Shown here in pieces: positions 3,257 through 5,775 of a stretch of DNA of 5,775 nucleotides (positions are counted from its first letter, which is position 1; every line of letters starts with the position of its first letter). The stretch lies in assembly GCA_021161545.1 (NCBI GenBank), contig JAGHAJ010000015.1:1-5775 (forward strand). Reading direction: 5' to 3'. Both the position numbers and the translations under genes were made by a program. The DNA comes from Synergistota bacterium. Its GTDB lineage: Bacteria > Synergistota > JAGHAJ01. The notes below the pieces were generated by a model. That model made no database searches, was not told the DNA's origin, and worked only from the letters and a program-made list of their open reading frames with translations.

Positions 3257-3410
3257 AGCCCCTTCGGCATTGCTCCCTCAATGAGAGCAATTCTCCAGAG
3301 TACCATCTGGCTGCAATCCTTTTACCTGAGAGATTCGGGTCCACCCCTTGCCCCTTCGGTCCTCTCCCATTAACTACGGGAAAGCGTCTCTTGCAACCAT
3401 CATCTGGCAC
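3232..3410 (-). promoter_or_regulatory. Tandem glycine riboswitch upstream of gcvT
   Basis: Two glycine aptamers lie head to tail on the minus strand. Aptamer I (about 3399-3308) has GGGAGAGGACCGAAGGGG and CTCTCAGGTAAAAGGA. Its P1 is a 9-bp helix, TGGTTGCAA (3399-3391) with TTGCAGCCA (3316-3308), and its P3a is CTTTCCC with GGGAGAG. Aptamer II (about 3300-3232) opens with CTCTGGAGAA, has a 9-bp P3a (ATTGCTCTC with GGGAGCAAT), then GCCGAAGGGGC and ACTCTCAGG. It closes with P1, CTCTG (3300-3296) to CAGAG (3236-3232). A leader-linker kink-turn is visible: leader GTGCCA pairs with linker TGGTAC, the leader has a 3-nt bulge GAT, and both strands then carry GA before P1. The motif order and the downstream gcvT match the known Rfam glycine riboswitch class. 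The aptamer II 3' joining segment (AGGCTCTTGTAC) departs from the common AGGTAAAAGGAC form. Binding of glycine is inferred from the family. Confidence 0.96.
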
Positions 3411-3561: not shown

Positions 3562-3590
3562 TTGACAACCATTACTCATCGGAGTATAAT
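3562..3590 (+). promoter_or_regulatory. Perfect-consensus promoter of the tctCBA operon
   Basis: TTGACA (3562-3567), a 17-bp spacer and TATAAT (3585-3590) match the housekeeping sigma consensus at all twelve box positions with ideal spacing. Transcription would begin near 3597, leaving a leader of about 20 nt before the tctC start. Such a promoter is intrinsically strong, so either the operon is made at high level or a repressor acts on it. Confidence 0.85.
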
Positions 3591-3617: not shown

Positions 3618-4577
3618 ATGATGCGTAGGAGTTTTTCAATTTTTATTGTTGTTGCTCTCATGCTATCCGTGGTAGCCACCGGATATGCAGCGAAATACCC
3701 CATTAAGCCAGTAAAAATAATTGTAGCGTTCTCCGCTGGTGGAGGCACAGACACAGCTGCAAGGGTCATGGCAAAATTTGCAAAGAAGTATTTTCCACAA
3801 CCATTTGTAGTAGTTAACAAACCCGGAGCAGGTGGGCAAATAGGATTTGAGGCATTGGCATTCAGCAGAAAGGATGGTTATACAATAGGATTTATAAACA
3901 CACCACATGTGGTAAGCCATTATGTATCTGGTAGAGCAAAGTACAAACTTAGCGACTTTCAACCCATATGCAACGTAGTAACAGACCCTGGCGTATTGGC
4001 AGTGAGGAGTGACGACAAGCGATTCAAAACCCTGAAAGACATCGTAGCATATGCCAAAAAACACCCCGGAAAACTAAGTGCAGCTACAACAGGTCCGGGT
4101 GGAGACGACTCCATAGCACTCGCACTCTTTACAGATGAAGCGAAAATCAAAATCAAAGATGTGCCTTTTGGTGGCTCATCCAAAGAGAAAGCAGCCTTAC
4201 TCGGAGGACATGTTGACATTGGGATGGTAAATGTAAGTCAGATATGGTCACTGGTAAACGCCGGAAAACTTAGAATGATAGCAGTAATGACAAAAAAGAG
4301 ATTGCCGTACCTTCCAAACATTCCTACATTCAAAGAGTTTGGCTACGCAGTATATTCTGATTCTTCAAGAGGTATAGCTGCTCCAAGAGGAATACCATCA
4401 CATGCATTCAAGAAACTAAGCGAAACATTTACCAAAGTCATGAAAGACCCTGGTTTCATCAAGGAAGCCAAGAAAATACACTTACTATTGAACTTTATGA
4501 ACGCAAAACAGTTTGAAGAGTACTTACTAACCGAGGAAAAGTTGATAAGAAAGGTGTACAAGAAACACCCGTGGTAA
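3618..4577 (+). CDS. tctC: TTT transporter periplasmic substrate-binding protein (Bug/TctC family)
   Basis: This is the extracytoplasmic receptor of a tripartite tricarboxylate transporter; it binds a small carboxylate-type ligand and delivers it to the TctA/TctB membrane complex. The protein has 319 residues, normal for the family. Residues 1-25 form a Sec signal peptide: MMRRS, then a hydrophobic stretch, with cleavage probably near Ala24. No lipobox cysteine is present. The mature start, YPIKPVKIIVAFSAGGGTDTAARV, is the signature of the Bug family, followed by NKPGAGGQIG (67-76), TGPGG (158-162), PFGGSSKEKAALLGGHVDIG (183-202) and the IAAPRGIP block (253-260). The frame is open upstream to 3348, but that part crosses the riboswitch and promoter, and AAGGAGG at 3607 supports ATG 3618; ATG 3621, at better spacing, is equally possible. 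The substrate cannot be predicted: Bug proteins bind diverse ligands including citrate, amino acids and aromatic acids. Confidence 0.95.
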   Translation: MMRRSFSIFIVVALMLSVVATGYAAKYPIKPVKIIVAFSAGGGTDTAARVMAKFAKKYFPQPFVVVNKPGAGGQIGFEALAFSRKDGYTIGFINTPHVVSHYVSGRAKYKLSDFQPICNVVTDPGVLAVRSDDKRFKTLKDIVAYAKKHPGKLSAATTGPGGDDSIALALFTDEAKIKIKDVPFGGSSKEKAALLGGHVDIGMVNVSQIWSLVNAGKLRMIAVMTKKRLPYLPNIPTFKEFGYAVYSDSSRGIAAPRGIPSHAFKKLSETFTKVMKDPGFIKEAKKIHLLLNFMNAKQFEEYLLTEEKLIRKVYKKHPW

Positions 4578-4581
4578 CACA

Positions 4582-4998
4582 ATGAACAGAATACAAATAA
4601 TCCCTATAATACTTATAGTAATATCTTCTCTAATGATAAAGGCAGCCCTTGCATACCCTGCAAGGGCTGCCTTTGCTTCGCACTATGTTATATTCTGGGC
4701 ACTTATACTGATCGCCTTCTGCATTGCAATAATATTTGGGACTAAAAAGAAGACAGAGAAAATAAAAGAACCCAAGAAATTACTTTTCCTCATAATGTCT
4801 GTCACCCTTTATCTATTTGCCATGACATACATAGGGTTCTTCATCTCAAGTGCAGCATTCATGATAGGGACAATGTTATACTTAGGCGTAAAGGACAAAA
4901 TAGCGTTACTTACCACTACCATCTTAGTATTGGGCGGAATTTATTTTATATTCTTAAAGTTCCTGGAAGTTCCAGTTCCATCAGGGATACTCTTTTAA
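4582..4998 (+). CDS. tctB: TTT transporter small membrane subunit (TctB)
   Basis: This is the small integral membrane partner of TctA. At 138 residues it is close to the family's usual 140-180. Hydrophobic segments lie at about 5-19, 34-53, 67-84, 86-101 and 108-126, with a charged cytoplasmic-type stretch (GTKKKTEKIKEPKK) between the second and third. The C-terminus FLKFLEVPVPSGILF is the most telling part, since TctB proteins typically end in a short helix followed by a V-P-x-P-x-G motif. Primary identity is low, as is normal for TctB, so the call rests on topology, this tail and its place between tctC and tctA. It starts 4 nt after the tctC stop with no good ribosome site (only CGTGGT), suggesting translation coupled to tctC. 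Residues 19-31 are encoded by a perfect stem-loop, noted separately. Confidence 0.88.
   Translation: MNRIQIIPIILIVISSLMIKAALAYPARAAFASHYVIFWALILIAFCIAIIFGTKKKTEKIKEPKKLLFLIMSVTLYLFAMTYIGFFISSAAFMIGTMLYLGVKDKIALLTTTILVLGGIYFIFLKFLEVPVPSGILF
4638..4674 (+). repeat. Perfect 16-bp-arm inverted repeat inside tctB
   Basis: Arm AAAGGCAGCCCTTGCA (4638-4653) and its exact reverse complement (4659-4674) flank the 5-nt loop TACCC. The flanking bases 4637 (T) and 4675 (G) add a possible G-U pair in RNA. The repeat is fully within the reading frame and encodes residues 19-31 of TctB. It is more GC-rich than its surroundings. On the plus strand the stem is followed by TTTGCTTCG, only a weak U-tract. It could be an internal attenuator or RNA-stabilising hairpin; the repeat itself is certain, its role is not. 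Confidence 0.9.
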
Positions 4999-5013: not shown

Positions 5014-5775
5014 ATGTTCGAACACATGTATGCAGGACTCATGCTGTTGATGAATCCAAGCTCTATACTCACTATATTTCTAGGAGTAGTTAGTGGAATA
5101 ATGATAGGTGCATTGCCCGGATTAACAGCAACAATGGCTGTTGCCTTATTGATACCAGTAACATTTGGTATGCCTCCAGAACAGGGTCTGGCACTCCTTG
5201 GAGGTGTGTATTCTGGAGCAATGTACGGTGGCTCTATATCAGCCATCCTACTACATACACCAGGTACACCTGCTGCTGCAGCAACCACTTTCGATGGCTA
5301 CCCCATGACACAGAAAGGGGAAGGTGGAAAAGCATTAGCAACATCAGTAGTTGCCTCTTTTGCAGGTGGCATACTAAGTACAGTTGCACTTCTATTTATA
5401 GCTCCTTTATTAGCATCCATCGCACTCAGGTTTGGTCCTGCTGAGTATTTCCTGCTTGCAATATTAGGGTTAACTACCATCGCCACCCTATCAACTGGGA
5501 ACATAGTAAAAGGATTAGCATCTGGAGTCATAGGACTATTACTAGCAACTGTCGGCACAGACCCTATAAGCGGATATGGTAGATTTACACTCGGTTCAAC
5601 CAATCTTCTTGGAGGAATACCATTTATGCCTGCGTTAATAGGACTCTTTTCTATGGCACAGGTATTAACACTTTCAGAGAGTGAGTACATAGTAAGAATA
5701 GAAAAGGAAGCTCTAAGAAGAATAAGGCATGTCTCCATAACAATAAAAGAATTAAAAAAATTAAAGGGTATAATA
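5014..5775 (+). CDS. tctA: TTT transporter large membrane subunit (TctA), N-terminal part
   Basis: This is the main translocation subunit of the tripartite tricarboxylate transporter. It is an inner-membrane protein that moves the substrate brought by TctC, in characterised systems driven by an ion gradient. The first 254 codons are present and open to the right edge, about half of the usual 500 residues. Family motifs are clear: GIMIGALPGLTATMAVALL (28-46), the strongly conserved YGGSISAILLHTPGTPAAAA (71-90) with TTFDGYPMTQKGEGGKALA directly after it (91-109), RFGPAEYFLLAILGL (139-153), then DPISGYGRFTLGS (183-195) and GGIPFMPALIGLFSMAQVL (200-218). Many hydrophobic helices alternate with short loops. 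AAGGAG at 4998-5003 lies 10 nt before the ATG. The gap after tctB is 15 nt, so it belongs to the same operon. Confidence 0.96.
   Translation, partial: MFEHMYAGLMLLMNPSSILTIFLGVVSGIMIGALPGLTATMAVALLIPVTFGMPPEQGLALLGGVYSGAMYGGSISAILLHTPGTPAAAATTFDGYPMTQKGEGGKALATSVVASFAGGILSTVALLFIAPLLASIALRFGPAEYFLLAILGLTTIATLSTGNIVKGLASGVIGLLLATVGTDPISGYGRFTLGSTNLLGGIPFMPALIGLFSMAQVLTLSESEYIVRIEKEALRRIRHVSITIKELKKLKGII

Follow-up and report, generated by a model that had tools for sequence, protein, structure and literature searches.

A perfect 16-bp hairpin lies within the start of tctB, the gene for the small membrane subunit of a tripartite tricarboxylate transporter, in the window analyzed here (the whole 5,775-nucleotide stretch of DNA). 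Its length is far outside chance expectation, stems of this kind follow most binding-protein genes of the same genome, and in homologous operons stems gather behind the binding-protein gene, some compact operons carrying them inside tctB. Judged from these associations in sequence, the hairpin is very probably the same device that stands behind most other binding-protein genes, where it would raise the binding protein over the membrane pump. In the form that we consider probable, it would serve as the 3'-end element of tctC and protect the tctC mRNA from exonucleases.

The hairpin and its operon

The features on which the analysis rests are the following:

3562-3590, forward strand: candidate sigma-70-type promoter upstream of tctC, TTGACA-17-TATAAT, a 12/12 consensus match, assigned by consensus only
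3618-4577, forward strand: tctC, solute-binding protein gene, with the strong ribosome-binding site AAGGAGGG (Pfam TctC, E 8e-48)
4582-4998, forward strand: tctB, small membrane subunit, 138 aa, ATG at 4582 (Pfam TctB, E 5e-11)
4638-4653, forward strand: 5' hairpin arm AAAGGCAGCCCTTGCA, codons 19-24 of tctB
4654-4658, forward strand: hairpin loop TACCC
4659-4674, forward strand: 3' hairpin arm TGCAAGGGCTGCCTTT, codons 26-31 of tctB
4672-4679, forward strand: weak T-rich tail TTTGCTTC, past the last G-C pair
5014-5775, forward strand: tctA, large membrane subunit, extending beyond the end of the window (Pfam TctA, E 7e-84)

The tctC gene starts at an ATG at 3618 or 3621, and its stop is separated from the tctB start by a gap of 4 nt. 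The arms are complementary at 16 of 16 positions (100%) with 5 nt between them, and the hairpin covers nt 57-93 of tctB, or codons 19-31. Both the coordinates and the pairing confirm the earlier note, which had described two exact 16-nt arms and a 5-nt loop inside tctB; its description of the DNA as AT-rich is fair at a GC content of 40%. The isolated hairpin RNA has a folding energy of -29.5 kcal/mol, and in a 161-nt context (z = -4.9) the hairpin is present in the centroid and is the dominant fold. Five of the eight nucleotides of the tail TTTGCTTC are T, the first three of which are also paired. Anti-SD pairing is strong for tctC (-13.6 kcal/mol) versus weak for tctB (-4.8 kcal/mol). The sole Rfam match in the window is a glycine riboswitch aptamer on the other strand (3304-3403, minus strand, RF00504, 59.8 bits) that precedes the divergent genes gcvT-gcvH-gcvP; the hairpin matches no Rfam family.

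Chance expectation

Chance expectation was estimated from a 364-kb sample of contigs from the genome assembly (288 contigs, 82% complete), in which stems had to be perfect with a loop of 3-10 nt. The tctB hairpin is the longest such stem in the sample. In 20 rounds of dinucleotide shuffling of the same sample, 13-bp stems appeared about 0.05 times per shuffle and longer ones never. Since the hairpin site is coding, synonymous shuffling was chosen as the stricter control; over 100 rounds with 332 open frames it gave 15-bp stems at 0.01 per round and none of 16 bp. With the peptide and register fixed, the probability of obtaining at least 16 pairs through codon choice is 2.7e-4. The hairpin is far beyond both the dinucleotide and the synonymous-codon expectation, which upholds the earlier view that it is unlikely to have arisen by chance. 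The open frames of the sample also carry a general excess of 10-12 bp stems; some of these frames are probably not true genes, and some of the stems proved to sit behind binding-protein genes.

A coincidental hairpin would be one in which the GCN codons of the alanine-rich peptide KAALAYPARAAFA pair by accident and the RNA has no function. The encoded YPARA is the usual TctB motif with no insertion, Ala-Ala codons pair readily, and one extreme among 44 homologous operons is in itself not impossible. Such an accident is nonetheless improbable given the in-register codon probability, the lack of any 16-bp stem in the synonymous reshufflings, and the position of the hairpin behind a binding-protein gene, which is where this genome puts such stems.

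Origin of the palindrome

The hairpin-encoded stretch KAALAYPARAAFA aligns without gaps to LGANSFPDRAADA and to similar stretches of the closest homologues, and its YPARA segment is a normal motif of TctB. A search for the arm in the genome and its relatives found the hairpin to be single-copy: with up to 3 mismatches allowed, the 82%-complete genome yields no further copy, and none occurs among 185 genomes of the phylum. A 12-nt piece of the arm has an exact match at two further places. Because the alignment is gapless and no other copy exists, the palindrome must have formed inside a protein motif that was already there. The same two observations leave without support the earlier suggestion that it is the remnant of a domesticated palindromic element. 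A dispersed element of the REP or RPE type, inserted in frame and domesticated, would account for a compact palindrome within a reading frame; with no other copy in the 82%-complete genome or the 185 phylum genomes and no insertion in the protein relative to homologues, we give that origin practically no credence, and within these genomes the hairpin is not a dispersed repeat. An assembly artefact in the form of an inverted chimera was also considered and is unlikely, as both arms encode family-typical residues and no gap is present.

One residue departs from the family. Residue 27 is Ala in the window versus Asp or Glu in 12/12 homologues with the (F/Y)PxR motif, and its codon, GCA, pairs with the codon of Ala24. 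Template switching, in which quasipalindrome correction perfected an imperfect palindrome without selection on the RNA, would yield perfect arms such as these, and the change from the Asp or Glu of the 12 close homologues is conceivable as a one-step correction. As it does not account for the recurrence of stems after binding-protein genes, both in this genome and in those of other phyla, this route is very unlikely.

Hairpins behind other binding-protein genes

Within the genome, a perfect stem of 8-16 bp occurs no more than 110 nt past the stop in 14 of the 19 binding-protein genes that could be evaluated, which belong to six families, and nearly all of these stems begin 0-17 nt past the stop. 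The gene set combines a survey of three families with genes located through hairpins and with tctC. When the window is left out, stems of at least 8 bp follow 13/18 binding-protein genes as compared with about 8/217 other gene ends (Fisher p = 2e-12); without the two genes located via their hairpins (L156 and L120) and the window, the count is 11/16. The background derives from 222 co-directional gene ends, 13 of which have stems, five being the same or similar binding-protein genes (one, at L134, was judged by its N-terminus only). Examples assigned by Pfam include hairpins of 15 bp behind an ABC sugar-binding gene (L156) and of 13 bp behind both a TAXI-type TRAP gene (L120) and a DctP gene (L116). 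Of this set, only the tctB hairpin falls within the coding sequence that follows, and nowhere is the intergenic gap smaller.

This association, together with that found across genomes below, supports the proposal of the earlier note that a hairpin after the binding-protein gene sets the ratio of receptor to membrane subunits. Viewed across the genome, long hairpins stand behind most ABC and TRAP binding-protein genes (L205, L156, L219, L210, L120, L216 and others), mostly without a U tract.

Stems also occur at compact junctions of other kinds. On the minus strand of L122, a perfect 10-bp stem lies 75 nt past the end of a ClpP-like gene with a nearly gapless junction, in the start of the next, clpX-like gene (codons SFCGRTQNE); it is possibly an in-gene hairpin of the same kind. 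Compact junctions carry two further stems, of 9-10 bp, which apparently fall within the following gene: one 41 nt past a DnaJ-like gene (L126) and one 50 nt past a gene with zero gap (L123).

Homologous tctC-tctB operons

The comparison set comprises 88 tctC-tctB operons, which form 44 clusters at 50% TctB identity. The statistics cover forward-strand loci of whole genomes; restriction to one strand lowers the counts and should leave position unbiased. In the 130 nt past the tctC stop, stems of at least 9 bp are found in 12.5 of the 44 clusters as opposed to 0.18 expected, and six control windows of the operon contain none across the 44 clusters. Operons with wide gaps have a folding signal that peaks 10-60 nt past the tctC stop (mean z -2.5, with 59% of clusters below -2). 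In compact operons the peak is weaker and displaced to 50-100 nt (mean -0.75, 24% of clusters).

With tctB starts anchored by alignment to separate in-gene from intergenic stems, and with the window excluded, coding stems of at least 8 bp occur in 3/13 compact versus 0/31 spaced clusters (p = 0.02). An intergenic stem is present in 15/31 spaced clusters. Since 10 of the 13 compact homologous clusters lack a long perfect stem in tctB, the shift into tctB in compact operons has support in the data but is not general. In other clades, the codons that form the in-gene stem differ from those of the window, so that the location recurs while the stem itself was not inherited from a common ancestor. 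The nearest TctB has 34% identity, and neither the contig collection searched nor the 185 phylum genomes contain close relatives suited to covariation analysis.

Constraint on the RNA was examined in relatives that have in-gene stems of their own. In Thermaceae (L185-L194), tctB contains a hairpin of GGCCTNGAGGC, 5 nt and GCCTCNAGGCC at about codons 18-28. The stem was first noticed in three genomes, and six fetched afterwards all keep it; it is paired in 10/10 genomes with compensatory changes, the tenth through a G-U pair. All 110 of the 110 pair cells are standard, and six have changed on both sides. Pairing is kept through amino-acid changes of Glu to Gln or Lys and of Leu to Phe. The covariation score exceeds that of 500/500 shuffles, with only two pairs covarying and the sequences being related. 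This evidence for RNA-level constraint on the Thermaceae pairing is good but not overwhelming. In the nearest clade of the same phylum (ten genomes), 3/3 paired four-fold sites of the in-gene stem are invariant versus 1/17 elsewhere in tctB.

Proposed function

The location of the hairpin inside tctB, where it shares its letters with TctB residues 19-31, is attributed to the gap of only 4 nt between tctC and tctB. The weak ribosome-binding site of tctB relative to that of tctC suggests that translation at the start of tctB is probably light, which would leave this region free to fold. We infer the following course of events in the cell. On the polycistronic tctC-tctB-tctA mRNA, the hairpin would fold where translation is poor, in the first part of tctB. 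An endonuclease would then cut the weakly translated tctBA part, and 3'-5' exonucleases traveling back from the cut would halt at the hairpin. The tctC mRNA would thereby persist, and the binding protein would outnumber the membrane subunits. As a counterpoint to this protective role, ribosomes on tctB would unfold the hairpin.

The hairpin may alternatively act as a partial intrinsic terminator or attenuator at which RNA polymerase stops in a fraction of transcripts. Poor translation of tctB would raise this fraction, and the result would again be more tctC than tctBA mRNA. For Clostridia, 21-96% termination has been measured in reporters at stem-loops that follow ABC binding-protein genes and have long stems but few U (PMC9045158). 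At its A-A-A/U-U-U base the present stem is similar to their paired-U type, and 5 of the 8 nt past the last G-C pair are T. The tail TTTGCTTC is, however, weak beside the tail of this genome's groEL terminator (7/8), the site is absent from the output of the terminator scan, and the sister hairpins, most of which have no good U tract, carry mostly 1-5 T. We consider partial termination the main alternative, though a less probable one than protection. By position and tail, exonuclease protection fits somewhat better; the 5/8 T would also be compatible with termination. Protection and termination alike predict more TctC than TctBA.

Implications

A broader and more tentative reading, which we hold to be possible rather than likely, is that tripartite tricarboxylate transporter operons require a hairpin module at the end of the binding-protein gene, and that this module enters tctB whenever the gap is lost. 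Such a module would have originated independently in several phyla and would bend the TctB sequence to keep its pairing, examples being Ala in place of Asp or Glu at residue 27 here and, in Thermaceae, Gln or Lys for Glu and Phe for Leu. A device for receptor excess has been measured in ABC operons of E. coli and Clostridia. The present analysis may extend it to transporters of the tripartite tricarboxylate family as well as to an uncultured lineage in which most binding-protein genes are followed by hairpins of this kind. The in-gene stems also offer testable cases in which a single stretch of DNA would serve a protein and an mRNA-stability signal together.

Comparison with known systems

The window agrees with the tripartite tricarboxylate transporter operon tctCBA in gene content, gene order and Pfam families. 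Within the part of the literature covered by the search, no description of a hairpin inside tctB came to light.

The closest functional parallel comes from the differentially decaying operons of E. coli (Dar and Sorek 2018), where hairpins end a stabilized 5' part and malE-malFG is the founding case (PMC5927463). In every ABC operon found there, the stabilized gene is the binding protein (PMC5927463). The protective hairpins lack U tracts, and 17/26 lie within the downstream coding sequence at a mean of 107 +/- 56 nt (PMC5927463); these cases correct the earlier remark that a hairpin would not usually be placed within the following gene. The tctB hairpin shares with them a stable stem at the boundary between 5' and downstream genes, a binding-protein gene upstream, a position in the downstream coding start (nt 57-93) and a lower expected ribosome load downstream. 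Its tail has 5 T in 8 nt, three of them paired, compared with no good U tract in E. coli. It also differs in belonging to a tripartite tricarboxylate transporter of an uncultured organism.

In cellulolytic Clostridia (Wu et al. 2022), internal terminators behind the binding-protein genes of ABC importers are intergenic and occupy gaps of >50 bp, and a cluster with a 24-bp gap shows continuous transcription (PMC9045158). Their stem-loops have folding energies of -10 to -38 kcal/mol (PMC9045158), a range into which the tctB hairpin also falls. The gap in the window is 4 nt and its stem is coding, whereas the Clostridia stems are intergenic; the two have in common a stem-loop behind a 5' binding-protein gene, with a long GC-rich stem and few U.
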